A stretch of 64,000 bases of DNA, taken from the NCBI GenBank assembly GCA_026414975.1, contig JAOAHZ010000007.1, positions 134,727-198,726 on the forward strand, written 5' to 3'. A model generated the notes under the pieces. That model made no database searches. It was given only the letters and a program-made list of their open reading frames with translations, and was not told the origin of the DNA. Both the position numbers and the translations under genes were made by a program. Shown piece after piece: positions 620 to 61,529 of this stretch. This DNA is from Bacteroidia bacterium. Its GTDB lineage: Bacteria > Bacteroidota > Bacteroidia > SpSt-205. Within the stretch, counting starts at the first letter, position 1; each line of letters begins with the position of its first letter.

Positions 620-627
620 TAAAGATA
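620..627 (-). promoter_or_regulatory. TAnnTTTG-like -7 box (TATCTTTA)
   Basis: One mismatch to the Bacteroidota -7 consensus, six bases before the ATG at 613. It lies almost back to back with the plus-strand box at 629-636. Confidence 0.45.
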
Positions 628-628
628 T

Positions 629-636
629 TATTTTTG
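629..636 (+). promoter_or_regulatory. -7 promoter box TATTTTTG
   Basis: Exact match to TAnnTTTG, ending six bases before the ATG at 643. It implies a leaderless or nearly leaderless transcript for the SUKH-like gene and pabB. Confidence 0.6.
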
Positions 637-642
637 ACATGT

Positions 643-1014
643 ATGGCAGAGGGCTTATCTCAAGCCGTATCTCTACCCCAAGTATTTTTTGACTGGCTGG
701 CGACGGTACAGCGATTCCCCATGTTTAGCGTATGGCGGGATGGAACCCTCTGCTCTATCAAGCTAACTCATATCTTAGACCTCTCAAATACGGACCGAAA
801 TATATTTATTCATCGAAGCCGCTTAGCCGGTCTCTTTCCGGATGCCTTCTTACCCCTTGGATACGATGTGTTTGGAAACCTTCTGCTGTGGGATGTAGAG
901 CGAGATGAAGTCTACATACACTGGCGAGGCATGCCCCCTGAACATCGGATTAAGGTAGCGTCTTCATTAGAGCACTTCTGCGACAAGCTTTACTACAGAC
1001 CCATACAAGGATGA
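643..1014 (+). CDS. SMI1/KNR4 (SUKH)-like protein
   Basis: A 123-residue soluble protein without signal peptide. The segment around residues 75-100 (YDVFGNLLLWDVERDEVYIH) and the later 'SSLEHFCDKLYY' follow the usual SUKH pattern: a Gly-Asn turn, a strand, a strand ending in Val-Tyr, then a helix of the FxxFLxxL type. SUKH proteins are often immunity or adaptor proteins, but many are housekeeping and nothing here shows a toxin partner. The ATG at 643 is preferred to the TTG at 634 because the latter is inside the promoter box. The TGA overlaps the ATG of pabB (ATGA), so the two are co-translated. Confidence 0.5.
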   Translation: MAEGLSQAVSLPQVFFDWLATVQRFPMFSVWRDGTLCSIKLTHILDLSNTDRNIFIHRSRLAGLFPDAFLPLGYDVFGNLLLWDVERDEVYIHWRGMPPEHRIKVASSLEHFCDKLYYRPIQG

Positions 1015-2162
1015 AACTATCTCAAGTGCTACGCTGGGCCGACAGCTATCCTTACTTTTATTTCCAGCTTCAAAACAGCCCTTACGATGAACTTACGCAT
1101 TACCGTTGGATAGTGGCAGTAGCACACAAGCCTCATCGGGATGCGCTGCACGAAGGGAGCTGGTACGTAGGCGGCTGGACCTATGAATGGAAAGCCCGCT
1201 ACAAAAAAACTTGGATTGAATTTCCAAAACAAGCTTTCTTTATCCCTAAAATCATTATCGCCCAAACCGAAGCCCCCGAATGGGAGAAAGAGTCTTTCAA
1301 GCGCGAGCCCGTCCGACAAGCCCGATTTCTGCAAAGCTCTTTGGATAAAGCCCATTTTACCAATCTGGTGGAGCGGATCCAGGAGCATATTTATTATGGT
1401 GAAGTTTATCAAGTCAATCTAACCTTGGGATTAGCGTGGGAAGCGACTATAGACCCGATCTGTGCGTATATAGCTCTTTTACAAGCCTTTCCTACGACCT
1501 ACAACTTTCTCTTCAAGTATCAGCAGAAGTATGTGATTGGAGCTTCGCCTGAACGATTTTTCTGGCAGTGGAAACAGCTTATAGCCCAACAGCCTATCAA
1601 AGGTACGGCGCCCCGAGGCAAAACTTGGGAAGAAGACCTCCAAATCGCTGAAAATTTACGCCATAGCCCCAAGGAGCTGGCAGAAAATACCATGATAGTA
1701 GACCTCGTCCGGAATGATCTGCAGCGAGTCTGTCTGCCCGGCTCTGTTCAAGTACCTGTATTAGCGGGAGTCCAAACCTTTCCCGGCCTTCATCACCTGG
1801 TATCTACCGTCTATGGAGAGAGAGAAAAGCATCTGTCTTGGATAAATGCGGTAGAAAGCCTCTTTCCCGCAGGGTCCATGACTGGAGCCCCTAAGCAGGC
1901 TGCCATGCGATATATCCATCGGTATGAACCCATAGGCCGTGGATTTTATTCGGGAGCGATTGGATACATCTCGCCTACGGGAGAAGCTGACTTCGCCGTA
2001 GTCATCCGAAGTTGGATATACGATAGAGCCTCACGGCGACTCGTCATCCAAGTAGGGAGCGGTATTACTTATGATTCTGACCCTGTAGCTGAGTGGGAGG
2101 AAAGCTGGCTCAAAGCCGAAAAGCTCCTTCATGCTCTGAAGCTCTCCCCCCAAGCTGCGTAA
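1011..2162 (+). CDS. pabB: aminodeoxychorismate synthase component I (chorismate-binding enzyme)
   Basis: This 383-residue chorismate-binding enzyme should make 4-amino-4-deoxychorismate from chorismate for folate synthesis. The catalytic domain spans about residues 110-375. PIKGT at 195-199 carries the Lys (K197) typical of PabB; anthranilate synthase TrpE has Ala there. GSMTGAPK at 288-295 and the helix ending with VDLVRND (about 230-236) are also conserved. The N-terminal part is shorter than in full TrpE/PabB proteins. No pabA or pabC is next to it. Its start overlaps the SUKH-like gene by four bases. Confidence 0.88.
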   Translation: MKLSQVLRWADSYPYFYFQLQNSPYDELTHYRWIVAVAHKPHRDALHEGSWYVGGWTYEWKARYKKTWIEFPKQAFFIPKIIIAQTEAPEWEKESFKREPVRQARFLQSSLDKAHFTNLVERIQEHIYYGEVYQVNLTLGLAWEATIDPICAYIALLQAFPTTYNFLFKYQQKYVIGASPERFFWQWKQLIAQQPIKGTAPRGKTWEEDLQIAENLRHSPKELAENTMIVDLVRNDLQRVCLPGSVQVPVLAGVQTFPGLHHLVSTVYGEREKHLSWINAVESLFPAGSMTGAPKQAAMRYIHRYEPIGRGFYSGAIGYISPTGEADFAVVIRSWIYDRASRRLVIQVGSGITYDSDPVAEWEESWLKAEKLLHALKLSPQAA

Positions 2163-2212
2163 GTCCTCTCACATAAGACCTGAATCCCCTCTGCACCAGA
2201 CCAGTACGATCT

Positions 2213-2234
2213 GAGCTTGTTAAGAAGCTTTTCC
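2213..2234 (+). terminator. possible terminator after pabB
   Basis: A six-pair stem (GAGCTT / AAGCTT, one G-U pair) with a six-base loop and four T residues after it, in the 128-base gap between the convergent pabB and corA. Weak but well placed. Confidence 0.35.
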
Positions 2235-2290
2235 CGGTTCGTTTGATTCTAACCAGCCTGTGCTTAAGTCGTCAGCACCTCTGCGCCCCT

Positions 2291-3253
2291 TCAAAGCCAA
2301 TGTCGCCAGCGAAAGTACCATAAGGTAAGAACCGAAGAGCCTATAATCAGTGCCCAAGCAAATATATAACCCCATTCCCACTCCAGCTCAGGCATAAACC
2401 GAAAGTTCATGCCATATACACTGGCGATTAGCGTGGGTGGCATAAAGGCTACGGTAATAACGGTGAAGATTTTGATAATACGATTTTGTTCCAAGTTAAT
2501 CAAGCTGAGGATAGTATTTTGAATAGACTCCAAACGCTGAAAGCTAAAACTCGTATGATCTATAAGAGAGCTGATATCCTTTAGAAGGATGCGAACCGCT
2601 TCCCGAGGTGAGTCGGTGAGTCGCTCTGAACGAATCAAAAGGGACAGGACCCGTTGGATATCAAAGAGACCTTCGCGAAGCCGAATAAGGTACTCTTGTA
2701 GCGTCTGAACAGCAAGTATGATTTTTTCTCGTTCAGAGAAATTAGCCTGACGGATAGCTGTAGAAAGACGATGAATGTGCTGGGATATCAGCTCTATGTT
2801 GTCAGCATCTACATCCACAATCTGTCCAAAGAGGGCCAGTAGCAAACGCAGCGGAGTATCCCCGATCTCGGGATTAGACTTGATGCGACGAACCAGTTCT
2901 TGAAACACCCGGCTGTCAGATGAGCGGTGAGTAAAAAGCCGCTCAGGTGTCCAAATGATACTAAGGTCCTGCTCCTGCAGAACAAGCTCCTCAGCCATGG
3001 GCCGCACTTCTATGAGACGCAGTATGATGCGGAGCTGCTCATTTTCTTCATGATATCGAGAGCTTGCTTCAATCTCGGCCTGCTCCTGCTTAGAAGGAAA
3101 CCGAATACCAAAGTGCTGCTCAACCTCTTGAAGTACCTCTCGGCTTACACCACAACTATCCACCCACTGAAAAGACTCTAGATCCGTAGGAGAAAAACCA
3201 TTCTCCTCCCACTTTTTTTGCTCATAAGGACGGAGGCGATAGGCACGCATCAT
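2291..3253 (-). CDS. corA: CorA family magnesium/divalent cation transporter
   Basis: A 320-residue protein with the usual CorA plan: a long soluble, helix-rich N-terminal domain, then two membrane helices close to the C terminus. The signature YGMNF, carrying the GMN of the pore mouth, follows the first helix (IKIFTVITVAFMPPTLIASV), and the second is about WGYIFAWALIIGSSVLTLWY. The charged C-terminal end RWRHW is cytoplasmic in this family. Start: GTG at 3256 is only one base from the promoter box, so ATG 3253 (or 3250) is more likely. Its start overlaps the 3' end of coaE, and its promoter lies inside coaE. Confidence 0.9.
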   Translation of the reverse strand: MMRAYRLRPYEQKKWEENGFSPTDLESFQWVDSCGVSREVLQEVEQHFGIRFPSKQEQAEIEASSRYHEENEQLRIILRLIEVRPMAEELVLQEQDLSIIWTPERLFTHRSSDSRVFQELVRRIKSNPEIGDTPLRLLLALFGQIVDVDADNIELISQHIHRLSTAIRQANFSEREKIILAVQTLQEYLIRLREGLFDIQRVLSLLIRSERLTDSPREAVRILLKDISSLIDHTSFSFQRLESIQNTILSLINLEQNRIIKIFTVITVAFMPPTLIASVYGMNFRFMPELEWEWGYIFAWALIIGSSVLTLWYFRWRHWL

Positions 3254-4966: not shown

Positions 4967-4973
4967 AAGAGAA

Positions 4974-5435
4974 TCATTTCGGTATCACAATACCTCGGAA
5001 CCGAAGCAGATGGGTAGGGGGGTCGGTGTTAGCGAAAACCGTTACAGTCTTCAACTGCTCACCCGAGCGCCCCTGAGAATCAAATATGACCTCTACAAAA
5101 CCCTCTCCTCCTGGGGGAATCGGCTCCTTAGTCCAAGCCGGTACTGTGCAACCACACGAGGGTTTTACGTCGGTAATCCGCAGGGGCACAGTACCAGGAT
5201 TTTTGACCCGAAAGCGATAGGAGGCTTTCTCCCCCTCCCGAATCTTGCCAAAATCATGCTCCATCTTATCAAACTCAATCTTGGCCGCAGGCTCCTGAGG
5301 AGAAAGAGAAGTGCTATCGCGAGAGTCAGCTTTGGACGACGGAGTAGCCGTGGATGACTTAGTGCCTTTATCCTCCGAAGTAACGGTAGTACAAGCGAAC
5401 CACACGAAAACCATGGCTACTATCACACCGCGCAT
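4974..5435 (-). CDS. DUF1573 lipoprotein
   Basis: A 153-residue protein with a lipoprotein signal (VFVWFAC, acylated Cys at about residue 14). After a Ser/Thr/Lys-rich linker it has one DUF1573 domain (about 55-153) beginning with 'EHDFGKIREGE' and including the motif 'PSCGCTVP', both typical. DUF1573 proteins are common Bacteroidota envelope proteins with an Ig-like fold and no settled function. Gene order DUF1573-yajC-YbbR-coaE is a conserved cluster in this phylum. A TAACTTTG box stands eight bases before the ATG. Confidence 0.88.
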   Translation of the reverse strand: MRGVIVAMVFVWFACTTVTSEDKGTKSSTATPSSKADSRDSTSLSPQEPAAKIEFDKMEHDFGKIREGEKASYRFRVKNPGTVPLRITDVKPSCGCTVPAWTKEPIPPGGEGFVEVIFDSQGRSGEQLKTVTVFANTDPPTHLLRFRGIVIPK

Positions 5436-5443
5436 ACGCCAGG

Positions 5444-5451
5444 CAAAGTTA
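5444..5451 (-). promoter_or_regulatory. -7 promoter box TAACTTTG
   Basis: Exact TAnnTTTG match, eight bases before the ATG at 5435. Likely start of the DUF1573-yajC-YbbR-coaE transcript. Confidence 0.6.
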
Positions 5452-5455
5452 CGAT

Positions 5456-5767
5456 TTAGCTAGCAGTGCTCCGAACTTCTCCCAATAATCCTTCTATCTC
5501 CAGAAGTAGCTGCTCAGCCTTTTTATACTCATCGGGTCGCAAGCCACTTTCCATGAAGGCTCTTTGTCGTACCTCTTCATAAGAGGGTTGAGAACCAGAG
5601 CCAGATAGACGACTGCGAAGCGCTTCCCAATACTCGCCGAGCTTGCGTCGGAGCCGTCGTCGGGTATTGACTCCGCTATCAGGCGCCACAAGAATGCCTA
5701 CAAGGGCTCCTACCGCCACTCCTGCGAGGAATGCCCAGAAAGCGCCACTTCCACGCGTTTCGCTCAT
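5456..5767 (-). CDS. YtxH-like membrane protein
   Basis: A 103-residue protein with one N-terminal membrane segment of the Gly-rich YtxH type (FLAGVAVGALVGILVAPDSG), followed by a basic stretch (TRRRLRRKLG) and a helical, charged tail. YtxH-like proteins are small, abundant, poorly understood envelope proteins; some have been linked to stress. The ATG at 5767 is chosen over one at 5797 because it follows a TACATTTG box by five bases and overlaps the rlpA stop (ATGA). Confidence 0.75.
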   Translation of the reverse strand: MSETRGSGAFWAFLAGVAVGALVGILVAPDSGVNTRRRLRRKLGEYWEALRSRLSGSGSQPSYEEVRQRAFMESGLRPDEYKKAEQLLLEIEGLLGEVRSTAS

Positions 5768-6414
5768 ACTGGCAAATGTACAACGAAGGCTTGCCATCCT
5801 TCGCCTCGGAGTCGGTCGCGTAATCTCTCAGCTTGTCGGCGTGTGGCAAAATCCCCTATCACAACCCGATAGAGAGAACGACCATTAGCTACAGTTCGCC
5901 ATATGAATACAACCTGATTGACTTCATTACCTGCATTACGCGCCAAGCTTCGGGCATTCGTTTCCTCCGAAAAAGCCCCTATCTGCACCCCGTAAGCCTG
6001 AGGACGATGGGGCTTGCCGTCTATACGATAAAAAGGCGTGGAAGCCGAAGGCGGAGAAGGCGCAGCCGGTACTTGAGTAACTTCTAACCGCACCGGCCCT
6101 ACGCCTTGACTCAAAATTCCTAACTCTTGGGCTGCTTTTTCAGACAGGTCTATGATGCGTCCTGGCTTATGAGGGCCCCTATCGTTGATGCGTACAATGA
6201 CAGCTTTACCCGTGAGCTTATTCGTGACTCGTACATAAGTATCAAACGGGAGGGTGCGATGGGCAGCCGTCATACCCCATCTGTCATACTTTTCCCCAGA
6301 GGCTGTGCGGCGTCCATGAAAACTGGGAGCATAATACGACGCTTCCCCCTCCTCCACGTAACCCATTTGGGCCAATAGAACCTTCACCCCAAGTACAACA
6401 GACACCCAACGCAT
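5764..6414 (-). CDS. rlpA: RlpA-like septal lytic transglycosylase with SPOR domain
   Basis: A 216-residue exported protein. After the signal peptide (cut in VLLAQ) comes the double-psi beta-barrel of RlpA (about residues 20-110), with 'GEASYYAPSFHGRRTASGE' and 'VRINDRGP' (the catalytic Asp region), then a Pro/Ala/Ser linker and a SPOR domain (about 138-216, starting YGVQIGAF). RlpA cleaves glycan strands lacking stem peptides at division sites, and SPOR binds such denuded peptidoglycan. A TATATTTG box sits four bases before the start. Confidence 0.9.
   Translation of the reverse strand: MRWVSVVLGVKVLLAQMGYVEEGEASYYAPSFHGRRTASGEKYDRWGMTAAHRTLPFDTYVRVTNKLTGKAVIVRINDRGPHKPGRIIDLSEKAAQELGILSQGVGPVRLEVTQVPAAPSPPSASTPFYRIDGKPHRPQAYGVQIGAFSEETNARSLARNAGNEVNQVVFIWRTVANGRSLYRVVIGDFATRRQAERLRDRLRGEGWQAFVVHLPV
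5773..5780 (-). promoter_or_regulatory. -7 promoter box TACATTTG
   Basis: Exact TAnnTTTG match, five bases before the ATG at 5767 and inside the last codons of rlpA. It decides the start of the YtxH-like gene. Confidence 0.55.
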
Positions 6415-6418: not shown

Positions 6419-6426
6419 CAAATATA
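6419..6426 (-). promoter_or_regulatory. -7 promoter box TATATTTG
   Basis: Exact TAnnTTTG match, four bases before the rlpA ATG at 6414. Confidence 0.6.
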
Positions 6427-6524: not shown

Positions 6525-8927
6525 CTAAGGGTCTACTCGAAAGAATACCCGGGCGCTTTGACTGCCCCAGCGGCGATAATGCTCATTACGCAACTGAATC
6601 AGCGCCTCTCGCAGTTTCAGGTAAGCGTATTGCAGAGGGAGCTTGAGGAGAAGTTGCATATGATACAATCCGCGCATGCGAGGCATATCAGCGTATACTG
6701 GTCCTAATACCTTTTCCACTTGGAGTGTTTCCAGAGCTTTTTTCCAAAGTTCTGCCTGCGCTTCCAAAGCGCCTGTATCCTTGTGATGGAGATTGACCTG
6801 TATCAATCGGCGATAAGGGGGATATCCATACCGACGACGCCGACTAAGTGCCTCTAAAGCAAAAACCTCGTAGGATGATTCAAGCTGACGAAACAAAGGT
6901 GTCTCGGGTTTGAAAGTTTGTATTACAATGTGGCTCGGCGTGCCCCGGCGCCCCCCCCGCCCAATAAGCTGGACTAAAAGGTGATAAGCCCTTTCCTCTG
7001 CCCGAAAGTCGCTTCGCCCTAAGAGGCTATCTGCATATAGCACGCCTACTAAGGTTACCTTCTCAAAGTCTAATCCCTTTGTAACCATCTGAGTGCCAAT
7101 AAGAATGTCCGCTTCACCTCGTTCAAAAGCTGCAATGATACTTTCATACCGACGTCCTCCTGCCGTGTCCCGATCCAGCCGTAAAACTCTTGCGTAGGGA
7201 AAAAACCGCTGAAGCTGCTCTTCCACTCTCTCCGTGCCAATCCCCGAAAGAGAGAGAGAGTCTCCCCCGCAAACACTGCAATGAGCTGGCATTTTCTCCC
7301 TGTAGCCGCAGTAATGACATAAAAGCCCATCTTGGTGCTTATGGTAAGTCAGCGTAATCGCGCACTGGGGGCATTCCCAGCGATGACCGCAGGTTCGGCA
7401 GAGAAGCATGGGCGCATAACCCCTTCTGTTTCTGAAGAGAATAGCCTGCTGCCCTTTTGACAGGACACTTTCTATCATCTCCTGCAGCACCGAGGAAAAA
7501 ACCCCTGTACTTAGCTGCTGAGCCAGCTCTATACGCATATCCACGATATGAATCTCTGGATGAGAGGTAGGAATAGCTTTTTGGGTCAGAGGTATGTAGG
7601 CATACTTGCCCTTGAGTGCGTTGGAGTAGGTTTCCAAGGCAGGAGTTGCAGACCCTAATACAACGGGGATTTGACGCAAGTGAGCATAATACACCGCTGC
7701 ATCTCGGGCCTGGTAGAAGGGCAGACGACTTTCTTGGCCGAAAGAGGGGTCATGCTCTTCATCTACGACAATAAGGCCCAGCCGATGGAAAGGGAGAAAC
7801 AAAGCGGAACGCGTACCAACGATTACATCTACGGCATCCTCTCTTACCGCTTTCCAGAGGCGATATCGTTCGGTTTCTGAAAGCCCGCTATGATACAGCT
7901 CCATGGCTTCGCCAAAAGTGCTGCGTATGCGATCCAGGGTCTGTTTCGTGAGGGCGATTTCAGGTAATAAGTAGAGCACTTGTTTGCCTTGGCGGAGAAC
8001 ATCTCGCATCAGTTCCATGTAGAGGAAGGTCTTTCCACTGGCGGTAACACCGTGGAGGAGGACTGGTCGCCGAGGGTTTTGATGGATAGCTTCTCGGAGG
8101 CGTAGGAGAGCCTCGGTTTGGGCTGGGGTAAGGGTGTATTCGCGTAAAGGGCGAGCGTATAGACGCTCGTAATATTGTCTTGAGGGGACCAAGCGGACAT
8201 AACCCGCCTTTAAGAGCGTGCGGAGAGCTTTGTGCTCTTTTCTGAGAAGGTGGGCGTATAAGGGGGGCTCCTGCCGAAGGGTGCGCTGGAGAAGCTCCAA
8301 GAATAGCGACTGCTCTGACAGCCCCAGTCGCTCCCACGCCGACTGAAACGCAACGGGCTCTTGATAATCTGGAGCAACTTCTACGAAGGAAGGAGGACGC
8401 GGAGAGGTGCTTCGCACGATCGCCTCCAAGCGAATAGCTCCTTGGCGCGACCATCGGCGTAGGACTGAGAGGAGCTTTTTCGGAGATAAGCGGAGCTCCT
8501 TGGCTATATTCCGAATAGTCCCTTCACCCCTGCGAAAGAGCCGTTTGTACAGCTTTTTAGGGGGCAGAGCAGGCGGAGCTCCAACCTTCCACGATATTTT
8601 CCAGTCGGTTATGCTTCCAACTCGGCCGGGCAGTATCACATGAGCCATGTCCCCCGGCGCCGCCATATAATACTGCGCTATCCATCGAAAGAAGGCCAAG
8701 CTTTCTGCGTCGTATAGCGGAGCGTAGTCTAACTTTTGGAGGATCGGCTTGAGATCAGAAGGAGGAGAGTCCTCGTAGACTTCCATTAGCAGAGCTATAT
8801 AAGGGGTATTATGCTGTCCAAGGGGCACAAGGACACGCATACCCGGCACATATGGAGCTTCCTGTGCTGGCAAAGCGTAGGCCAGAGCGTTCAACCCCCG
8901 ACGGCGAACCCAGAGTAGTCCCCACAT
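6525..8927 (-). CDS. priA: primosomal protein N' (PriA helicase)
   Basis: An 800-residue 3'-5' helicase that restarts stalled replication forks. The N-terminal DNA-binding domain is followed by the helicase core: Walker A 'GVTASGKT' (about residue 290), DEEH box 'VVDEEHD', and 'LGSATPA'. Between the helicase lobes is the zinc-binding insert with eight cysteines, including 'CRTCGHRWECPQC' and 'CHYCGYREKMPAHCSVCG'. Motif 'IGRGGRRG' and the C-terminal domain complete the protein; length is typical. It is divergent from the DUF4139-like gene with only 15 bases between the start codons. Confidence 0.95.
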   Translation of the reverse strand: MWGLLWVRRRGLNALAYALPAQEAPYVPGMRVLVPLGQHNTPYIALLMEVYEDSPPSDLKPILQKLDYAPLYDAESLAFFRWIAQYYMAAPGDMAHVILPGRVGSITDWKISWKVGAPPALPPKKLYKRLFRRGEGTIRNIAKELRLSPKKLLSVLRRWSRQGAIRLEAIVRSTSPRPPSFVEVAPDYQEPVAFQSAWERLGLSEQSLFLELLQRTLRQEPPLYAHLLRKEHKALRTLLKAGYVRLVPSRQYYERLYARPLREYTLTPAQTEALLRLREAIHQNPRRPVLLHGVTASGKTFLYMELMRDVLRQGKQVLYLLPEIALTKQTLDRIRSTFGEAMELYHSGLSETERYRLWKAVREDAVDVIVGTRSALFLPFHRLGLIVVDEEHDPSFGQESRLPFYQARDAAVYYAHLRQIPVVLGSATPALETYSNALKGKYAYIPLTQKAIPTSHPEIHIVDMRIELAQQLSTGVFSSVLQEMIESVLSKGQQAILFRNRRGYAPMLLCRTCGHRWECPQCAITLTYHKHQDGLLCHYCGYREKMPAHCSVCGGDSLSLSGIGTERVEEQLQRFFPYARVLRLDRDTAGGRRYESIIAAFERGEADILIGTQMVTKGLDFEKVTLVGVLYADSLLGRSDFRAEERAYHLLVQLIGRGGRRGTPSHIVIQTFKPETPLFRQLESSYEVFALEALSRRRRYGYPPYRRLIQVNLHHKDTGALEAQAELWKKALETLQVEKVLGPVYADMPRMRGLYHMQLLLKLPLQYAYLKLREALIQLRNEHYRRWGSQSARVFFRVDP

Positions 8928-8935
8928 TACTTTTG
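8928..8935 (+). promoter_or_regulatory. -7 promoter box TACTTTTG
   Basis: Exact TAnnTTTG match, seven bases before the ATG at 8943, directly abutting the divergent priA start codon. Confidence 0.6.
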
Positions 8936-8942
8936 CGGCTGT

Positions 8943-10271
8943 ATGGCAAAGCTATGGATTTGGCTAGGGCTTCTGTGGGCTCAGCCCCTCCTACCGCTCA
9001 GTCGCCTTCAATACTATAGTTCGGGTAGGGCCTACTGGATACGCGAAGCGGTAGTTCCCATGCTGCGCTCAACTGTGGCCGTACGACTGCAGGGGAAAGC
9101 TCAACCCCTTTTCATTCTCCACCCGCCAGAGTATCGGATTAAGCGTTGGTCATTTGTAGCCGATACCCTCCTCGTTGAGGGAGGCCGGTCAGCTGAAACC
9201 ATATCTCAATTTCTCACTAATCACATAGGAGCGTCGGTATGGATAACCTATAGTGCTGGGGCAGAATGGGAAGAGGTTCAAGGCATCTTAGAAAAAGTAT
9301 CTGAACAGGGCGATATCCTTCTGCGCCGTCCTTCTCAAGAACGCTTATGGCTTCCACATTCTCTGGTTCAGGCAGCCCGAATAGAAGGAAGTGCAACCCC
9401 TAAGCGAAACACCCCAGCCTGGCGGGTGTTCATTGAGACAGACACCACCCTACCAGCCGCTCGGATCATCGTAGGAGGTTGGGACTCTCTCGCACCTTGG
9501 ACGGCTCTTCATACCCTGCAGCTCACCAGCCCTACCCGAGCTACCTTGACCACCTATATCCAAATCCCCTCTTTTGCGGAAGAGGCGGCTCAAGTGGATT
9601 TGCACTTAGTTCAAGCGGAGTCTGACAGCACGCAGACTTACTCGTGGCATTTGCCGATGCAGAAGCTCTCAGCTCAAGCAGAAAATCGAGTCTTTCTCCT
9701 TCGGGCTGAAGTGCCTTATACCGAGCTTTACCGTGCCTCTCTACCCGACCTAATAGAAAGTCTGGACCCCATTGCTATCACAAGCTGGAGGGGATATGCG
9801 GAGCGCTCTTTACAAATCCTAAATGTCAGTCAAACCACGATTCCCGCCGGAGCTGTGCATATCTTGGATGAACAGGGATTAGCTGTAGCCCAAAGCCGAA
9901 TCGGTATAACCCCCCCAGCTGGCAGCGGGTATATTCCCCTGGCTCACATGGCTGGAATAGAACTGCGGCTCCAAGAGCAAGAGACGCGTCGCGAGCGCCT
10001 CAAGGACCCAGCCTATAGTGGAAAGGTTATCCTCACTGGAACCCTACGGATTCAAAATAGCAGTTCTCGTGAAGCTCGGCTTCTGGTGCAGAAGCCTATC
10101 ACGGGGCAACCTCTTGCGGACCGACTGGGTTTTGCTCGAGCAGCACCCCTTCCCGAGCGCCGCGGGCCTAACCCCCGATACCTCCTCCAGTGGGAGCTTC
10201 TGCTGCGGCCCGGCGCTATCGAAACGCTGGAGTACGCTTACGAGATCACTTTACCCGCTTCAAGCCGATGA
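8943..10271 (+). CDS. exported DUF4139-like protein
   Basis: A 442-residue protein with signal peptide WLGLLWAQ. The C-terminal two thirds look like DUF4139: a long run of beta strands, a central region beginning near 'DSLAPWTALHTLQL' and an end of the form 'LLRPGAIETLEYAYEITLP', which matches the 'W-x-L-x-L-x-P-G-E-x-x-x-x-x-Y-x-Y' ending of that family. DUF4139 proteins include envelope proteins of unknown function. Its last codon overlaps the ATG of the small AtpI-like gene, placing it at the head of the ATP-synthase transcript, though no functional link is known. Confidence 0.6.
   Translation: MAKLWIWLGLLWAQPLLPLSRLQYYSSGRAYWIREAVVPMLRSTVAVRLQGKAQPLFILHPPEYRIKRWSFVADTLLVEGGRSAETISQFLTNHIGASVWITYSAGAEWEEVQGILEKVSEQGDILLRRPSQERLWLPHSLVQAARIEGSATPKRNTPAWRVFIETDTTLPAARIIVGGWDSLAPWTALHTLQLTSPTRATLTTYIQIPSFAEEAAQVDLHLVQAESDSTQTYSWHLPMQKLSAQAENRVFLLRAEVPYTELYRASLPDLIESLDPIAITSWRGYAERSLQILNVSQTTIPAGAVHILDEQGLAVAQSRIGITPPAGSGYIPLAHMAGIELRLQEQETRRERLKDPAYSGKVILTGTLRIQNSSSREARLLVQKPITGQPLADRLGFARAAPLPERRGPNPRYLLQWELLLRPGAIETLEYAYEITLPASSR
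8947..8954 (-). promoter_or_regulatory. -7 promoter box TAGCTTTG for priA
   Basis: Exact TAnnTTTG match, 19 bases before the priA ATG at 8927, so a short leader of about 12 bases is expected. The box lies inside the first codons of the divergent gene. Confidence 0.5.
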
Positions 10272-11657: not shown

Positions 11658-11665
11658 TACCTTTG
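11658..11665 (+). promoter_or_regulatory. -7 promoter box TACCTTTG for atpE
   Basis: Exact TAnnTTTG match, eight bases before the atpE ATG at 11674. It would let the c subunit, needed in many copies, be made in excess of subunit a. Confidence 0.55.
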
Positions 11666-11673: not shown

Positions 11674-11913
11674 ATGTGGTTAGAAGCTAGTAGCACCATT
11701 CATTATCTCGGCGCTGCTTTAGGCGCTGGCCTTGCGGCTATTGGAGCTGGTATTGGCATTGGAACCCTCGCCTCGTCCGCCATGCAGGGGGTCGCTCGAC
11801 AACCCTCTGCCGCCGGAGACATCCGAGCTAATATGATCCTCATGGCGGCTTTCGTGGAAGGGGTGGCTCTCATCGCCGAAGTAGTCGCTATTCTCGTCGT
11901 TTTCCTGAAGTAG
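11674..11913 (+). CDS. atpE: F0F1 ATP synthase subunit c
   Basis: A 79-residue two-helix protein forming the rotating ring. The loop has ARQPS (residues 41-45), and the ion-binding carboxylate is E62, 18 residues after the loop Pro, as in other Glu-type c subunits. The residue after E62 is Gly and helix 1 (GAGLAAIGAGIGIGT) has no Gln, so the sodium-type pattern is absent and proton coupling is expected. A second Glu (E69) one turn later is unusual. No atpF, atpH, atpA or atpG follows; they are not in this window. Confidence 0.94.
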   Translation: MWLEASSTIHYLGAALGAGLAAIGAGIGIGTLASSAMQGVARQPSAAGDIRANMILMAAFVEGVALIAEVVAILVVFLK

Positions 11914-11938: not shown

Positions 11939-11968
11939 GAGCCGTCCGGATTAGCGGACGGCTTATCT
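11939..11968 (+). terminator. terminator after atpE, fused to next promoter
   Basis: A perfect nine-pair stem (AGCCGTCCG / CGGACGGCT) with a six-base loop at 11940-11963, followed at once by TATCTTT, which is both the T-rich end and the start of the next gene's promoter box. Confidence 0.7.
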
Positions 11969-11971
11969 TTG
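11964..11971 (+). promoter_or_regulatory. -7 promoter box TATCTTTG
   Basis: Exact TAnnTTTG match, four bases before the GTG start at 11976. It overlaps the T-tract of the atpE terminator. Confidence 0.6.
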
Positions 11972-11975: not shown

Positions 11976-12914
11976 GTGTCAAACTTGCGTCTCTCCCGCG
12001 AAGCCCAAATCGGCATCATTACAACAGGAGCTGCTATACTCCTCTTCTTTGGCCTCAACTACCTCAAAGGGCATTCGGTGTTTCAGCGTTACAACACGTA
12101 CTACGCCGTCTTTCAGAACGCCGATAACCTCTCCACCAGCGATAAAGTCCTATACCGAGGCTACAAGGTTGGACAAGTGCAGGACCTACGGTTTAACCCT
12201 CGTACGGGTGAGGTTCTAATAGAGTTTGAGGTGCTGCGTGAAATACCCCTTCCCGTAGATAGCCGAGCCACCATCACCAACTTAGACCTCATAGGCACCA
12301 AGGGGCTTTGGATAGTGCCGGGCTCATCCGAAAAGCTCGCTCAAGAAGGCGACACCCTTCTGGACAGTTTAGCCACTGGAACCTTTGATAAGGTTCTTCA
12401 AGAGATACGCCCCATAAAAGACCGCTTAGACACCCTTTTAGGACAGCTCAATCAGACCGCTGCCCACTTAAATCGTCTTATCGCTCCTGAGGGGGGAGCC
12501 GTGCCTCAAACCATTTCAGCGGTTCGTGTGTTAGCCAACCGTACAGCTGACGAACTCTCCCCCACCGCTGCTCATCTCCGACAAACCTTAACCGAGCTGG
12601 ATAAAACCCTCTCTGAACTAAGGACTCGACTCACCTCCGCCCTAAATACCTTTGAAGAAACAGCTGACTCTCTAAACGGTCGCCTGCCCTCTCTATTGAC
12701 CCGTTTAGACTCTTCGGCTTTCCAGCTTCATAAAACCCTCCAAACACTCAACGAAGGACAAGGAACCGCTGGCCTTCTCCTAAGAGATAGCAGCTTGTAC
12801 AGAGACTTAGATAAAAGCGTAGTCAGCCTAAGGCTCCTTTTAGATGAACTGCGGCTCCATCCAGAGCGATTCGTACATTTTTCCATATTCGGCCGCAAAA
12901 GGACCGAAGACTGA
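11976..12914 (+). CDS. MCE/MlaD-family lipid transport protein
   Basis: A 312-residue protein: one N-terminal membrane helix (AQIGIITTGAAILLFFGLNYL), then an MCE domain (about residues 40-125) with 'LYRGYKVGQVQDL' and 'ITNLDLIGTKGL', then a long helical, probably coiled-coil tail rich in Leu, Thr and Asp. This is the plan of MlaD, the periplasmic ring of a retrograde phospholipid transporter. MlaE/MlaF partners are not adjacent. The start codon is GTG, four bases after a TATCTTTG box. Confidence 0.88.
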   Translation: MSNLRLSREAQIGIITTGAAILLFFGLNYLKGHSVFQRYNTYYAVFQNADNLSTSDKVLYRGYKVGQVQDLRFNPRTGEVLIEFEVLREIPLPVDSRATITNLDLIGTKGLWIVPGSSEKLAQEGDTLLDSLATGTFDKVLQEIRPIKDRLDTLLGQLNQTAAHLNRLIAPEGGAVPQTISAVRVLANRTADELSPTAAHLRQTLTELDKTLSELRTRLTSALNTFEETADSLNGRLPSLLTRLDSSAFQLHKTLQTLNEGQGTAGLLLRDSSLYRDLDKSVVSLRLLLDELRLHPERFVHFSIFGRKRTED

Positions 12915-14463: not shown

Positions 14464-14471
14464 CAAACATA
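14464..14471 (-). promoter_or_regulatory. -7 promoter box TATGTTTG
   Basis: Exact TAnnTTTG match, four bases before the ATG at 14459. Confidence 0.6.
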
Positions 14472-22249: not shown

Positions 22250-22257
22250 AAAATGTA
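22250..22257 (-). promoter_or_regulatory. -7 box variant TACATTTT
   Basis: One mismatch to TAnnTTTG, three bases before the ATG at 22246; it supports that start over 22294. Confidence 0.45.
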
Positions 22258-22267
22258 CAAACTTTTT

Positions 22268-22275
22268 TACCTTCG
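22268..22275 (+). promoter_or_regulatory. -7 box variant TACCTTCG
   Basis: One mismatch to TAnnTTTG, six bases before the ATG at 22282; the same TTCG variant precedes speB. Confidence 0.4.
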
Positions 22276-29492: not shown

Positions 29493-29500
29493 CAAAGGTA
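29493..29500 (-). promoter_or_regulatory. -7 promoter box TACCTTTG
   Basis: Exact TAnnTTTG match, five bases before the ATG at 29487; promoter of the lipoprotein-TonB receptor operon. Confidence 0.6.
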
Positions 29501-29554
29501 TTCCCTCCATCGTAAAGCCAGGATAAAGAGAGCCACTGGGAATGCTTTTTGCCT

Positions 29555-29562
29555 TATTTTTG
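29555..29562 (+). promoter_or_regulatory. -7 promoter box TATTTTTG
   Basis: Exact TAnnTTTG match, four bases before the ATG at 29567. Confidence 0.6.
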
Positions 29563-35928: not shown

Positions 35929-35936
35929 CAAAAGTA
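35929..35936 (-). promoter_or_regulatory. -7 promoter box TACTTTTG
   Basis: Exact TAnnTTTG match, four bases before the gatB GTG at 35924; a second box, TATTTTTG, lies at 35944-35951. It fixes the start codon. Confidence 0.6.
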
Positions 35937-38847: not shown

Positions 38848-38855
38848 CAAAGGTA
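38848..38855 (-). promoter_or_regulatory. -7 promoter box TACCTTTG
   Basis: Exact TAnnTTTG match, four bases before the aroE ATG at 38843. Confidence 0.6.
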
Positions 38856-39705: not shown

Positions 39706-39713
39706 CAAAGGTA
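39706..39713 (-). promoter_or_regulatory. -7 promoter box TACCTTTG
   Basis: Exact TAnnTTTG match, four bases before the TPR-protein ATG at 39701. Confidence 0.6.
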
Positions 39714-39738: not shown

Positions 39739-39746
39739 TTTCTTTG
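39739..39746 (+). promoter_or_regulatory. -7 box variant TTTCTTTG
   Basis: One mismatch to TAnnTTTG, six bases before the GTG at 39753, which it supports as the start codon. Confidence 0.4.
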
Positions 39747-46838: not shown

Positions 46839-46846
46839 CAAAGATA
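46839..46846 (-). promoter_or_regulatory. -7 promoter box TATCTTTG
   Basis: Exact TAnnTTTG match, four bases before the M16 peptidase ATG at 46834. Confidence 0.6.
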
Positions 46847-49134: not shown

Positions 49135-50024
49135 ATTCGGTAAATAAGATGGGCAGCTACAACAGCATCTAACTCCGCTCCACCTGTCTCACACACATCA
49201 AATCCGATAAGGGTTCGGCCAGATCGAGGTATGGCTTCTAAGATAAAGAAAAGTTCCTCATACCGCAGTCCGCCAGGAACGGGCGTTCCTGTATGAGGCG
49301 TATATCCCACATCTAAGGCATCTATATCCACGCTCACATAGACTCTGGAAGGCAAAAGGCTGACGATTTCACTGACGGTCTCGGTGAAGGGACGCCCCCG
49401 AAATAGGGACTGCGCTAAACGCCTCATTTCATATACAACGAGCCGCGGATACAAGGCGCGAGCGTATTCGGCTTCTTCCCGAGCCCAATCCCGAATCCCC
49501 ACAGCTACGATTCGTTCTATAAATGGCAGTTGGCTCAGATGATACAAAATCGTGGCATGCGAATACACCATCCCATCGTATGAAGCCCGTAAGTCCGCGT
49601 GTGCATCTATATGCAAAACGCCATAAGGTTCGGTGGTACCGAGAGCCAGATGTGCACCGAGAGGGACGCTGTGATCCCCTCCTATGATGCCGAAGGCCTT
49701 CTGGGTCGATAGAGCGGCCTTAACTTTTTCCCGCACGAAAGGAAGAACTTCAGACTCATACACGCTGTCCTTGTTGGCACGGGAGGAAAATCCCACAGGA
49801 GGTTCCTCCCACGCCAATCCTACTTCTTCTAAGGCCAAGCATTCAGAGCGATGATAGTCTATATGAGCAGATACCCGCCTTATGAGCTCAGGAGCCTGGG
49901 CTGTGCCTCGGCGAAAGGAAACACCCCCCTCCCATGGTACCGCAATCAGAGCAAGGCTGGCTTGCTCCCAAGCTGTCTGGCGTCCGTATATTTCGCGTCG
50001 TACTTGATGCATTTCCGCCTGCAT
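49095..50024 (-). CDS. speB: agmatinase/arginase family ureohydrolase
   Basis: A 309-residue ureohydrolase, probably an agmatinase that makes putrescine and urea. The manganese ligands are in 'GGDHS' (His), 'HIDAHADLR' (two Asp and one His) and 'SVDIDALDVG' (two Asp), all in the standard order. 'HTGTPVPGGL' follows, as in agmatinases. Formimidoylglutamase or guanidinobutyrase remain possible. The start follows a TATCTTCG box by six bases. It overlaps the M1 peptidase gene; no speA is present in the window. Confidence 0.82.
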   Translation of the reverse strand: MQAEMHQVRREIYGRQTAWEQASLALIAVPWEGGVSFRRGTAQAPELIRRVSAHIDYHRSECLALEEVGLAWEEPPVGFSSRANKDSVYESEVLPFVREKVKAALSTQKAFGIIGGDHSVPLGAHLALGTTEPYGVLHIDAHADLRASYDGMVYSHATILYHLSQLPFIERIVAVGIRDWAREEAEYARALYPRLVVYEMRRLAQSLFRGRPFTETVSEIVSLLPSRVYVSVDIDALDVGYTPHTGTPVPGGLRYEELFFILEAIPRSGRTLIGFDVCETGGAELDAVVAAHLIYRICGILVCGASYGA

Positions 50025-50030: not shown

Positions 50031-50038
50031 CGAAGATA
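50031..50038 (-). promoter_or_regulatory. -7 box variant TATCTTCG
   Basis: One mismatch to TAnnTTTG, six bases before the speB ATG at 50024. Confidence 0.45.
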
Positions 50039-50067: not shown

Positions 50068-50075
50068 TATCTTTG
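50068..50075 (+). promoter_or_regulatory. -7 promoter box TATCTTTG
   Basis: Exact TAnnTTTG match, eight bases before the rhomboid ATG at 50084; it decides that start against longer in-frame options. Confidence 0.6.
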
Positions 50076-50083: not shown

Positions 50084-50881
50084 ATGGTGGGGCTCGGCAG
50101 GCGATTCTTTGCGGGAGCTACACCCTTATCTTGGCTCATTGGAGTCAATGTCGCCCTTTATGTGCTCTCGGTTTTAGTAGCTGTGGGGTTCTACCTTGCA
50201 GGAGAGCTAGCTGTATTTGAGCGTTTCTATCGCAAGTTAGCTTTACCTGGAGCCCCTACAGCCCTTCTTAGGCAGCCTTGGGCGCTCTTAACCCACATGT
50301 TCATTCACGACTGGAGAGGGTTTTGGCATATCCTCTTGAATATGCTCTGGCTATACTGGATGGGTCAGCTCTTTCTGACAACGCAACCAGGTATCCGACT
50401 CTTCTGGGCTTATGGAGCAGGGGGGCTTGGAGGCATAATAGGATTTTTGAGCTACGCCTGGGGGCACGAAGGGTATAATGGATACGCTTTCGGAGCTTCC
50501 GCGGCGGTCAATGGAGTATTTTTTGCGACCGTAGCTTTGATGCCGACCTTCCGTGTCTTTCTCTTTATTTTCGGTCCCATAGCCCTTAAGTGGCTAGCGC
50601 TGGTGTGGGTGTTTTTGGACCTTCTTCTAACCTTAGGCGGAAACGAAGCAACGGCTATAGCTCACCTTTCTGGAGCAGGCATGGGGCTACTTTTAGGGTA
50701 TTTATTGGGGCAGGGATGGGAGCCTGAGCGCCTGACCGCTCCCTTCTACCTCGCTTTCAAGAAGAGAGAGGTTACCTCAGACGAAGTTGACCGAATCTTA
50801 GAGAAGATTCATCAAAAAGGACTGAAGAGCCTTTCGCGCCGCGAGCGTGAAATACTGAAACGGGCAGCTGAAAGGCTTTAA
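50084..50881 (+). CDS. rhomboid family intramembrane serine protease
   Basis: A 265-residue protein with six or seven membrane helices. The catalytic Ser 139 is in 'FGASAAVNG' and His 194 in 'AIAHLSGAG'; 'HILLN' (82-86) is the conserved His-Asn motif of helix 2. It cleaves membrane helices within the lipid bilayer. The ATG at 50084 is chosen because it follows a TATCTTTG box by eight bases; a longer frame from 49934 would run through the speB start region. The next gene starts four bases after its stop. Confidence 0.9.
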   Translation: MVGLGRRFFAGATPLSWLIGVNVALYVLSVLVAVGFYLAGELAVFERFYRKLALPGAPTALLRQPWALLTHMFIHDWRGFWHILLNMLWLYWMGQLFLTTQPGIRLFWAYGAGGLGGIIGFLSYAWGHEGYNGYAFGASAAVNGVFFATVALMPTFRVFLFIFGPIALKWLALVWVFLDLLLTLGGNEATAIAHLSGAGMGLLLGYLLGQGWEPERLTAPFYLAFKKREVTSDEVDRILEKIHQKGLKSLSRREREILKRAAERL

Positions 50882-50885: not shown

Positions 50886-51860
50886 GTGTATTTCTGGCGA
50901 GTAGCAGGGCTCCTGCTCATGGTGCTATGGGGCCTCTCCTGGTTTGTGCCGCCCTGGGGATGGAGTCTACCCTTCTTTACGGCTCTTTTTTGGGTATACG
51001 GCGGGGGTGCCTTTTTCACCGTCGGCTTGCTGAGTGACAATCGTCATCGCTGGTTTTGGCTTGCAGGATTACTGGTTTGGATCGGAAGCCTACGATACAT
51101 CTGGAGCTTTTTCCCCTCTATCTCCCATGAGACACCCTTCTTACGGATTGCTACATTCAACATGGACGCAGCGCATTATCGGCGCCCTCAGATAGAGCGC
51201 TTAGCCGACAGCCTACGAAGGTGGCATCCCGACATTCTATGCCTGCAGGAAGTGTACTTGGGAGATTATACAGTGGAAGCCTTCGCTCGTCGTGTAGGAT
51301 ATACTCACTATACCTTTTTGGATGCCAAAATGCACATGGGAATGCTTATACTCAGCGACTTTCCTATAGAGAAGGACCGAATCCACTTGCTCCTCCCCGG
51401 CACCACAAATGGACTTCACGAGGCACGACTTCGTCTACCTGACGGCGAAGTAGCGCAGGTAATCCATATTCATTTCCCTTCCTATCGCCTAGGACGAGAA
51501 GATTCATGGAGTTGGAATTGGCTAAGCCGAATCTGGGGATACCATGCTAAGTTTTACAAAAATCTATACCACCTTTTAGAAAAACCTTCGACGATGGTAT
51601 GGGTATGTGGAGACTTCAATGCCCCTCCCTTTCACCCCATCTATCGTATGCTGAATAGGCTCCTTTATGACAGTCATACAGCGGCTCCGTGGGGAGTGGG
51701 CCCGACCTGGCAGAGGGTTCTGCGGATAGACTACATCTGGGGAAGTCACCCTGCTCTTTGGCAACGGATACGCTGGATACCCGGACAAGCTCACGCCTAC
51801 GTAGAGGCAGCTTATGCACTTTCCACAAAGAGTGCTACCTTTGTATCCTCGGGGCGTTAG
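50886..51860 (+). CDS. endonuclease/exonuclease/phosphatase family membrane protein
   Basis: A 324-residue protein with two or three membrane helices at the N terminus (about 1-70) and an EEP-fold domain (about 85-315). Visible motifs are 'IATFNMDA' (start strand, Asn), 'DILCLQEVY' (catalytic Glu), and 'VCGDFNAPP' (Asp-Asn). The substrate is unknown; members cut DNA, lipids or phosphate esters. Start is GTG at 50886. Its stop codon (51858-51860) is inside the tRNA-Val gene, and the tRNA promoter lies inside its last codons. Confidence 0.82.
   Translation: MYFWRVAGLLLMVLWGLSWFVPPWGWSLPFFTALFWVYGGGAFFTVGLLSDNRHRWFWLAGLLVWIGSLRYIWSFFPSISHETPFLRIATFNMDAAHYRRPQIERLADSLRRWHPDILCLQEVYLGDYTVEAFARRVGYTHYTFLDAKMHMGMLILSDFPIEKDRIHLLLPGTTNGLHEARLRLPDGEVAQVIHIHFPSYRLGREDSWSWNWLSRIWGYHAKFYKNLYHLLEKPSTMVWVCGDFNAPPFHPIYRMLNRLLYDSHTAAPWGVGPTWQRVLRIDYIWGSHPALWQRIRWIPGQAHAYVEAAYALSTKSATFVSSGR
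51836..51843 (+). promoter_or_regulatory. -7 promoter box TACCTTTG for tRNA-Val
   Basis: Exact TAnnTTTG match ending seven bases before the first base of the mature tRNA. Because tRNA ends are known, it calibrates the distance expected between this box and the transcript start. Confidence 0.65.
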
Positions 51861-51924
51861 CTCAGGGGTTTAGAGCGCCTGCTTCACACGCAGGAGGCCG
51901 GTGGTTCGAATCCATCACGCCCCA
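51851..51924 (+). tRNA. tRNA-Val (anticodon CAC)
   Basis: A 74-base cloverleaf: acceptor GGGGCGT pairing with ACGCCCC, D-arm with GCTC...GAGC, anticodon stem CCTGC/GCAGG with loop TTCACAC (anticodon CAC, reading GTG), and T-arm GGTGG-TTCGAAT-CCATC. Discriminator A is at 51924; CCA is not encoded. The end of the preceding gene overlaps its first ten bases, and the dxr start codon begins one base after it. Confidence 0.95.
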
Positions 51925-51925
51925 C

Positions 51926-57521: not shown

Positions 57522-57624
57522 AATCTAGTCGTCACCCCGAGATAGATTGAGGGGAACTTTTGGTCGGCTATGCAGTTCAAGCCATTCTATCGCAACAAAG
57601 GGAGGAGGGTGGCTCTTTACGTGG

Positions 57625-57861: not shown

Positions 57862-59498
<1,637 letters not shown>

Positions 59499-59580
59499 TT
59501 AGATTAAGCTACTGAGCGTGAGGCATATGCAAGCTGGAAAACCAGCCGAGACTATCAAGCCTTCAAGTATAAAGTAACTC

Positions 59581-59742: not shown

Positions 59743-59749
59743 GACAGAG

Positions 59750-60283
59750 CTATTGGAAGCGGATTTTCTCACATCCCGTAGCTCCTGGCCCTATAGTAAT
59801 GAAGCCATCCCGGATCACCCCTTTTCCAGGATAGTAAGCGCTATAGATCAGGCGCCAGCAACGGGAACCTCCTCCTAAAACACCTCCCCCGCCCCCGCAC
59901 ACATCTGACATATCCCCTAACCGGTAGTGAAAGCGAAACTTCTTCACTCCACTATCTTCACAGGTCGGCTCTGTGAGGAAAGCTTCGGAGCGGAGATAGA
60001 AGCTATTCCACAGCTCCTGCGAAGGGCCGCCTTGTGGATCCGGGTCGCTTATGCGCAGGTAGAGCGTATCTATTTCCAACTGAGCCAGATAGCGAGCGAA
60101 GGTGGTATCAAACCAGAAAGCTATCGTATAGTTGTATTCGCAAATCTCGCCTTTGTGGCGATTACAGTCGCTGCAGTAGTTAGTAGCTACTTGCTCCATG
60201 CATCCCTCCTTTCGCCGACATGCCGTAAATAGAAGCCCCCCGAGGGTTAGGAGGACAATGCCTGCTTTGCTTTTCCAACGCAT
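59750..60283 (-). CDS. lipoprotein of unknown function, Cys-rich
   Basis: A 177-residue lipoprotein whose signal 'LLTLGGLLFTAC' closely matches that of the glutaminyl-cyclase-like protein. The mature part has several cysteines in pairs ('CMEQVATNYCSDCNRHKGEIC', 'CEDSG', 'DVCGGGGG', 'RCW', 'GCEK'), likely disulphides or a metal site, and a beta-rich core. No known domain was recognised. It has its own TAAGTTTG box four bases upstream. Confidence 0.7.
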   Translation of the reverse strand: MRWKSKAGIVLLTLGGLLFTACRRKEGCMEQVATNYCSDCNRHKGEICEYNYTIAFWFDTTFARYLAQLEIDTLYLRISDPDPQGGPSQELWNSFYLRSEAFLTEPTCEDSGVKKFRFHYRLGDMSDVCGGGGGVLGGGSRCWRLIYSAYYPGKGVIRDGFITIGPGATGCEKIRFQ

Positions 60284-60287
60284 ACAA

Positions 60288-60295
60288 CAAACTTA
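60288..60295 (-). promoter_or_regulatory. -7 promoter box TAAGTTTG
   Basis: Exact TAnnTTTG match, four bases before the ATG at 60283. Confidence 0.6.
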
Positions 60296-60464
60296 AGAAG
60301 CGCAAATTAGCCGGCGACCTTCTCCCCATAAAACAGAGCTTTTGCTTACTTCCTGCTCTCACGAGTAAAGTTGGGCTGCTATCCAGCGGGATGGGAGACC
60401 ATTTTACCTGATAAAGCTCAGGATGGCGCAGAGGGACTCGAACAGAGGAATAGCTCCCCTCTCA

Positions 60465-61232
60465 TCATAGCTCCCATTCTACCAAGATGTAACGATCTGG
60501 CCACTTTTTTCGGTCGTAGTAGCAGGATTCATCAGCTTTGCTAGCTGAGACTTTGAGCAAAACCACATTGGAAGCATCTTTAGCATAGAAGCATTTTACT
60601 TCTCCCGCCAGTCTTACTCCTGAGCCGGGCTCACAAACTACCTCCAGCTGTCGTGCAAGAAAATCATACCAATCCCGCACAGCTTTTATTTTCTCTCCGT
60701 TTTTGAGGTTTAGAAGCCCTACTTCGTTTAGGTGGAAGTAAAATAGAAGACCTAGCTTTTCAAGGAAAAAGAAATAGCTCGGCGAGTAGTTAGGATAATC
60801 CATACGAACTCCCCCCGGATACTCCTTGGAATAGAAGACCAGTGCCCGAGTGCGGTCTCGGTAATTGCTACATGCCCCTGAGTCCAAAGAAAATACCCAT
60901 ACCTTTTCCCCACGCAGCTGAAGGGGTGCAAGGGGCTGCCAGGACCATGAGATATCTCCATGGTAGCCTTCTTCTAAGCGAATTTTTTTCTCTCCCACAG
61001 GGAAGCGATACACCTTCATACGATTTCCTGCAGCGCAGCCGCTACGAAAGGTGCCTACTTCTACAGCTTCCATATCCGGAGGGGTAGTTGGCGATTGATT
61101 GAGCGCAGAAGTTATTTCTATCTGAATGGAGTCTCCCACTCGCCGCTGAAACTCTAAAAGCGTCATCTCCCAGTAGAATACCTGAGCCTGAAGAAAGGAA
61201 AAAAGTAGCATGCCTACTTTTATCCTGTGCAT
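60465..61232 (-). CDS. exported protein of unknown function
   Basis: A 255-residue exported protein (signal 'LLFSFLQAQ'). The mature protein is rich in Tyr, Phe and Trp with four or five Cys, mostly beta strands, and ends 'RYILVEWEL'. I cannot assign a family. The ATG at 61232 is chosen over 61256 because it is four bases after a TATCTTTG box and gives a clean signal peptide. It shares unusual features (Cys pairs, aromatic-rich) with the neighbouring lipoprotein, perhaps because both are surface proteins. Confidence 0.65.
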   Translation of the reverse strand: MHRIKVGMLLFSFLQAQVFYWEMTLLEFQRRVGDSIQIEITSALNQSPTTPPDMEAVEVGTFRSGCAAGNRMKVYRFPVGEKKIRLEEGYHGDISWSWQPLAPLQLRGEKVWVFSLDSGACSNYRDRTRALVFYSKEYPGGVRMDYPNYSPSYFFFLEKLGLLFYFHLNEVGLLNLKNGEKIKAVRDWYDFLARQLEVVCEPGSGVRLAGEVKCFYAKDASNVVLLKVSASKADESCYYDRKKWPDRYILVEWEL

Positions 61233-61236
61233 AAAG

Positions 61237-61244
61237 CAAAGATA
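61237..61244 (-). promoter_or_regulatory. -7 promoter box TATCTTTG
   Basis: Exact TAnnTTTG match, four bases before the ATG at 61232. Confidence 0.6.
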
Positions 61245-61521
61245 GGGCATAGCCAAAATGTGGAATATAACGGGGATGTATTCGGCTGAGCTCGTAGAAT
61301 GCCTGGCATTCAGACATGTCAGAAGGTTTTTCCATATTAGCAGTTCTTATTTACATGCCGCAATTTCTAAATATACTCTAGCGGTCTTGCTGGATTGTTG
61401 CTATGAATATGGGAAAGGAGGAGTCTGATAGTGCAGTTATCTACAAAATATAGTTACCACAAGCTCGGCATTTAGAAGAAGGCCCAGAAGGTTTAGTTGT
61501 AGAAAATGGTCATAACTTGCC

Positions 61522-61529
61522 TAACTTTG
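61522..61529 (+). promoter_or_regulatory. -7 promoter box TAACTTTG
   Basis: Exact TAnnTTTG match, seven bases before the methyltransferase ATG at 61537. The 280 bases upstream are AT-rich and show nothing else. Confidence 0.6.

Follow-up and report, generated by a model that had tools for sequence, protein, structure and literature searches.

The sigma-ABfr-type housekeeping promoter of the Bacteroidota has -33 and -7 elements (TTTG / TAnnTTTG). In Flavobacterium johnsoniae, transcript starts map 4–5 nucleotides (nt) downstream of the -7 box, whose two N positions do not admit G (PMC6847099). Studied relatives carry ∼20–50 bases of leader, and the mapped Bacteroidota are mostly leadered, lack Shine-Dalgarno (SD) sequences and initiate in a Kozak-like manner. 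Here we describe a 64,000-nt stretch of DNA from a Bacteroidia bacterium (contig JAOAHZ010000007.1, positions 134,727 to 198,726; hereafter the window), in which TAnnTTTG boxes lie directly against start codons. Based on sequence comparison, we consider it very probable that these boxes are ordinary sigma-ABfr-type -7 elements and that most transcription units open with a gene read from a leaderless mRNA.

Leaderless mRNAs and the TAnnTTTG promoter are already known, each separately. Leaderless genes of the Actinobacteria and Deinococcus-Thermus likewise have a promoter box against the start codon and leaderless unit heads, their TANNNT -10 box lying ∼10 bp before the start (PMC3160421). Those systems differ in promoter, phylum and ribosome, the anti-SD of Bacteroidia being sequestered by bS21, bS18 and bS6. 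In their survey of 953 genomes, Zheng et al. classed the Bacteroidetes as 'atypical', not leaderless (PMC3160421), and a comparative study suggested leaderless mRNAs in this phylum from base biases alone (PMC5397173). F. johnsoniae and Bacteroides thetaiotaomicron resemble the organism studied here in the absence of SD sequences, the retained anti-SD core and bS21 Tyr54, but differ in having mean leaders of 33–52 nt, with 3.7–13% of leaders short. Specifically, 87% of F. johnsoniae leaders exceed 10 nt (PMC6847099), 3.7% of B. thetaiotaomicron leaders are shorter than 10 nt, and 5.5% of F. psychrophilum mRNAs are leaderless. For F. johnsoniae, leaderlessness was explicitly ruled out as the cause of the missing SD (PMC6847099). 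Our literature search, which had most subscription papers outside its reach, found no report of a leaderless-dominant member of the Bacteroidota.

Distance between box and start codon

The genome holding the window comprises 2.206 Mb in 58 contigs and is 96.7% complete. Pattern counts cover the whole genome. The finer analysis was done on a 464-kb sample, in which a simple home-made codon-usage finder called 364 genes (92% coding), with start codons picked blind to the boxes. A unit head was defined as a divergent gene, or a gene at least 60 nt from the preceding one (n = 165).

A genome-wide count of the kind the initial annotation had proposed gave 541 occurrences of TAnnTTTG-N(2-9)-ATG, versus 89 of the reversed pattern; for the narrower spacing TAnnTTTG-N(3-6)-ATG, the corresponding values are 375 and 38. 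Before the 165 heads, 45 exact boxes lie at a distance (d) of 0–10 nt from the start codon, 22 of them at d = 4, versus 23 at 11–92 nt, and permuted control boxes are essentially absent at short distance before the heads of the sample. The peak at d = 4 is seen separately for ATG and for GTG starts. A blind search of all gapped six-letter words returned TAnnTTTG as the top word ending 2–9 nt before starts (44 versus 0.35 expected). In Parabacteroides goldsteinii, by the same search, TAnnTTTG ranks first at 20–40 nt (25 versus 1.4) and is not among the top words near the start. When one mismatch and any in-frame start are allowed, 91 of the 165 heads (55%) are boxed at 2–9 nt, versus ∼23 (∼14%) for seven permuted boxes.

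The statement of the initial annotation that most transcription units are boxed holds with a qualification. Of the exact boxes found up to 100 nt from heads, about two-thirds have leaderless spacing; roughly half of the heads, after background correction, have a box with at most one mismatch there. Its remark that no Shine-Dalgarno-like sequence is visible was borne out: the SD frequency before boxed genes is 0.04, equal to that in shuffled sequence (0.04), and there is little elsewhere either.

Promoter nature of the box and predicted transcript starts

Identification of the box as the -7 element of a housekeeping promoter is supported by several comparisons, with sigma-ABfr as the predicted sigma factor. 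G is underrepresented at both N positions (0.14 and 0.06, against a background of ∼0.26), giving TAHHTTTG. The element is like the described sigma-ABfr promoter in its -7 box, in the exclusion of G and in the lack of a clear -33 element, and would share its 4–5 nt spacing to the transcript start (+1) (PMC6847099). It differs in lying 4 nt from the start codon, compared to ∼20–40 nt in Parabacteroides and most sampled outgroups. An exact box precedes the mature 5′ end by 4–11 nt in each of the seven leading tRNA genes of the sample and the window, which marks the box as a promoter element and excludes a ribosome signal. One of these tRNAs, a single case, starts 4 nt after its box, so +1 can lie no more than ∼4 nt past the box there.

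Taken together with the 4–5 nt spacing of F. johnsoniae, the peak at d = 4 would put +1 on the first base of the start codon, and from box position we infer 5′ ends at or near the start codon more generally. The initial annotation had read the box in the same way, with mRNAs beginning at or just before the start codon; the tRNA genes, the matching spacing, the scarcity of operon-internal boxes and the orthologues with a distant box all favor that prediction. Under this model, the -7 elements of housekeeping promoters would have moved against start codons, typically as TAHHTTTG-nnnn-(A/G)TG, with RNA polymerase starting on the initial base of the start codon, or no more than ∼4 nt upstream of it. 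The first gene of most transcription units would then be translated from leaderless mRNA, its AUG recognized at the 5′ end by P-site initiator tRNA on 70S or tRNA-loaded 30S ribosomes, while operon-internal genes would follow the usual SD-less route of the Bacteroidota.

Because the box directly precedes start codons, and because S1 is present in these organisms, one could suppose that the box is instead a translation signal, i.e. a ribosome- or S1-binding motif that resembles a -7 element, and that transcripts begin further upstream. The boxes before all seven leading tRNA genes are at odds with this. So is the concentration of exact boxes at unit heads (44/165, versus 15/177 operon-internal starts, with the start codon fixed), and so is the finding that orthologues of these genes in other Bacteroidia have the identical word at a much greater upstream distance. 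Divergent genes provide a further argument. With one mismatch allowed, 22 of the 48 divergent pairs have a box for each gene. Seven of these doubly boxed pairs have start codons just 26–38 bp apart and boxes standing back to back. Such pairs leave no space for leaders, nor room for another promoter outside coding sequence. We regard a translation signal as extremely improbable, the least likely of the alternatives considered.

Two genes allow the position of the box to be followed across genomes. For atpD, the initial annotation had used the box to correct the start codon, and the ATG at 59387 and its box are kept in 9/9 genus genomes, at a spacing of 4–8 nt, versus ∼45 nt upstream in outgroups G014, G015 and G016. 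Among named AtpD sequences, the best match to the organism's protein is 73% identical. The gatB product, for which the initial annotation had likewise put forward a start correction, was not found among the proteins scanned. For rpsU, the box is 5–7 nt before the ATG in 10/10 family genomes (one with a mismatch), whereas in other Bacteroidia with a legible box it is ∼20–60 nt upstream, twice together with an aaaggagg SD. These data bear on the idea that short leaders are real, with +1 located 4–5 nt after the box, and that the functional starts are downstream in-frame ATGs, the box-proximal ATG being only the start of the longest open reading frame (ORF). Several in-frame ATG or GTG codons do occur near some starts, such as the ATGATG of CorA at 3253. 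Yet in atpD and rpsU the box-proximal ATG corresponds to the conserved N-terminus, and an exact 4-nt peak for both ATG and GTG would be unexplained if the codon were unused. General use of downstream starts therefore seems very unlikely. If the leaderless model holds, the box pins start codons to the base, which would allow annotation corrections in at least 12 genomes.

Several observations weigh against the leaderless model. About 30% of the exact boxes within 100 nt of heads sit at leadered distances, and ∼45% of heads are without a box (up to one mismatch) near the start. Boxes at 6–8 nt may correspond to leaders of 1–4 nt. No -33 TTTG element is seen, with no position from -40 to -25 exceeding 0.11 bit; this motif is likewise not visible in F. 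johnsoniae (PMC6847099), so its absence is not decisive. Finally, the regions upstream of rnpB in the genus genomes show no consistent box, most copies being without one and only that of G004 being boxed (5 nt). The use of rnpB as a ruler for transcript starts was dropped, as most genus copies have no box just upstream.

Family, outgroups and ribosome

The trait is common to all 11 family relatives, and the excess of the pattern over its control is 125–182 per Mb in the 12 genomes that include the window's own. Among ∼360 other Bacteroidota genomes, none reaches this density, the highest excess being 97 per Mb. Calculated on called gene starts, three family genomes give net short fractions of 0.68, 0.67 and 0.69. 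Outside the family, G012 (the sister family) gives 0.42, G031 0.33, G020 0.14, Parabacteroides 0.04, G145 0.01 and G061 0.00. Four of these genomes (G031, G145, G020 and G061) ranked high in the pattern survey and were considered as convergent lineages, a proposal we rejected: on gene starts, G145 and G061 peak at 21–40 nt, the profile of G031 is flat, and boxes are scarce in G020.

These comparisons also address the possibility that the boxes represent the ordinary short-leader tail of the Bacteroidota, made conspicuous by compact intergenic regions. A modest excess is indeed found elsewhere (97 per Mb in G031, 92 per Mb in G145), and 3.7–13% of the mapped leaders of the phylum are short. However, the flat distance profile of G031 and the distant peaks of G145 and G061 do not fit, nor do net short fractions of 0.67–0.69 in the three family genomes against 0.00–0.04 in G061, G145 and Parabacteroides, and all of the ∼360 other genomes fall below the family density. 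An ordinary tail is, in our view, improbable in the extreme, slightly more so than the general use of downstream starts.

In G012, the only sister-family genome (77% complete), the box-to-ATG distance peaks at 7–8 nt, 3 nt longer than in the family, with genome-wide counts of 172 versus 70. This spacing suggests, from one incomplete genome, 2–4 nt leaders as an intermediate, and the trait may therefore have arisen in steps. Growth temperatures predicted from amino acid composition (IVYWREL) are ∼68–83 °C for the family, 58 °C for the sister genome and 19–39 °C for controls (our own sample, G005, G011 and G012 being among those computed). These values suggest that the family is thermophilic, and we hypothesize a link between thermophily and leaderlessness.

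The ribosome of the family looks like the usual Bacteroidia type, since the anti-SD core, bS21 Tyr54 and S1 are all kept; sequestration of the anti-SD itself is a prediction. Within the family, the 16S tail was obtained from G005 only, a complete genus genome, where the 3′ end reads GGATTACCTCCTTTCT and the CCUCC core is retained. Protein bS21 was found in 30/31 genomes, and its Tyr54 is conserved in the organism's own protein, in G005 and in three outgroups. Loss of S1 was considered and rejected, as S1 is present in 20/21 genomes and missing only in G011 (66% complete). In other Bacteroidia, the SD of the rpsU leader (aaaggagg) serves bS21 autoregulation (PMC9976891). Because rpsU in the family has probably lost both leader and leader SD, autoregulation of that kind should be absent.

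Two further observations concern the 16S 3′ end. That of G005 (C1:792393-792426, - strand) reads GGATTACCTCC, compared to GGAACACCTCC in G014 and G016. In G020, the end reads GGAACATCTCC and is altered inside the anti-SD core.

With moderate confidence, we propose that a probably thermophilic family converted its housekeeping promoters to leaderless start, apparently in two steps (leaders of 2–4 nt in the sister family, none in this one), keeping the anti-SD and bS21 Tyr54 and losing the rpsU leader and any autoregulatory SD. If true, the family would be a natural experiment within a phylum whose ribosome hides the anti-SD, and it would become testable how such ribosomes initiate on a bare AUG and whether heat favors leader loss.

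Boxes and divergent promoters in the window

The raw number of boxes in the window is only mildly raised: 38 exact TAnnTTTG sequences are present versus 27.4 expected, and 4 of 100 shuffles reach as many. The signal is in the position of the boxes, not their number. Twenty of the 38 end 4–8 nt upstream of the ATG or GTG of ORFs no shorter than 79 codons. Five one-mismatch boxes near starts (620-627, 22250-22257, 22268-22275, 39739-39746 and 50031-50038) complete a set that agrees with the 'about 24' boxed genes or operons counted by the initial annotation. The eight boxes it had given as examples are all correct in place and strand. By hand count, 18–19 of the 25 unit heads in the window have an exact or one-mismatch box. 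The boxes are as follows.

629..636, + strand: -7 box TATTTTTG, 6 nt before ATG at 643
620..627, - strand: -7 box TATCTTTA (1 mismatch), 6 nt before ATG at 613; paired back to back with the box at 629-636, with 29 bp between the start codons
3258..3265, - strand: -7 box TATTTTTG, 4 nt before ATG at 3253 (corA); within the 3′ end of the upstream gene
5444..5451, - strand: -7 box TAACTTTG, 8 nt before ATG at 5435 (DUF1573 protein)
5773..5780, - strand: -7 box TACATTTG, 5 nt before ATG at 5767; predicted operon-internal promoter
6419..6426, - strand: -7 box TATATTTG, 4 nt before ATG at 6414 (lytic transglycosylase/SPOR)
8928..8935, + strand: -7 box TACTTTTG, 7 nt before ATG at 8943; priA, the divergent neighbor, starts 15 bp away
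11658..11665, + strand: -7 box TACCTTTG, 8 nt before ATG at 11674 (79-aa ORF after the ATP synthase A chain; putative atpE, by position)
11964..11971, + strand: -7 box TATCTTTG, 4 nt before GTG at 11976 (MlaD protein)
14464..14471, - strand: -7 box TATGTTTG, 4 nt before ATG at 14459 (enoyl-CoA hydratase)
22250..22257, - strand: -7 box TACATTTT (1 mismatch), 3 nt before ATG at 22246 (lamin-tail protein)
22268..22275, + strand: -7 box TACCTTCG (1 mismatch), 6 nt before ATG at 22282; diverges from 22250..22257, starts 35 bp apart
29493..29500, - strand: -7 box TACCTTTG, 5 nt before ATG at 29487
29555..29562, + strand: -7 box TATTTTTG, 4 nt before ATG at 29567 (DUF4476); diverges from 29493..29500
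35929..35936, - strand: -7 box TACTTTTG, 4 nt before GTG at 35924
38848..38855, - strand: -7 box TACCTTTG, 4 nt before ATG at 38843 (aroE-like)
39706..39713, - strand: -7 box TACCTTTG, 4 nt before ATG at 39701 (TPR protein)
39739..39746, + strand: -7 box TTTCTTTG (1 mismatch), 6 nt before GTG at 39753
46839..46846, - strand: -7 box TATCTTTG, 4 nt before ATG at 46834 (pitrilysin-like peptidase)
50031..50038, - strand: -7 box TATCTTCG (1 mismatch), 6 nt before ATG at 50024
50068..50075, + strand: -7 box TATCTTTG, 8 nt before ATG at 50084 (265-aa ORF)
51836..51843, + strand: -7 box TACCTTTG, 7 nt upstream of the mature tRNA-Val 5′ end (51851-51925); promoter of a non-coding gene
59394..59401, - strand: -7 box TACCTTTG, 6 nt before ATG at 59387 (atpD); 4–8 nt spacing kept in 9/9 genus genomes
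60288..60295, - strand: -7 box TAAGTTTG, 4 nt before ATG at 60283
61237..61244, - strand: -7 box TATCTTTG, 4 nt before ATG at 61232
61522..61529, + strand: -7 box TAACTTTG, 7 nt before ATG at 61537 (methyltransferase)

The boxes at 5773-5780 and 35929-35936 are predicted leaderless promoters within operons, abutting or overlapping the end of the upstream gene. Compact divergent promoters occur in the window (620-636, 22250-22275 and 29493-29562) and in the genome sample, with paired -7 boxes between start codons 26–60 bp apart. At these distances, the upstream part of each promoter falls in the opposite gene, and paired back-to-back promoters would account for intergenic regions of 26–60 bp. 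An even tighter arrangement is seen for priA and its divergent gene (8927-8954), where the starts are 15 bp apart and only the + strand gene is boxed at leaderless distance; the - strand box, at 8947-8954, is 19 nt upstream of priA and within the divergent gene.

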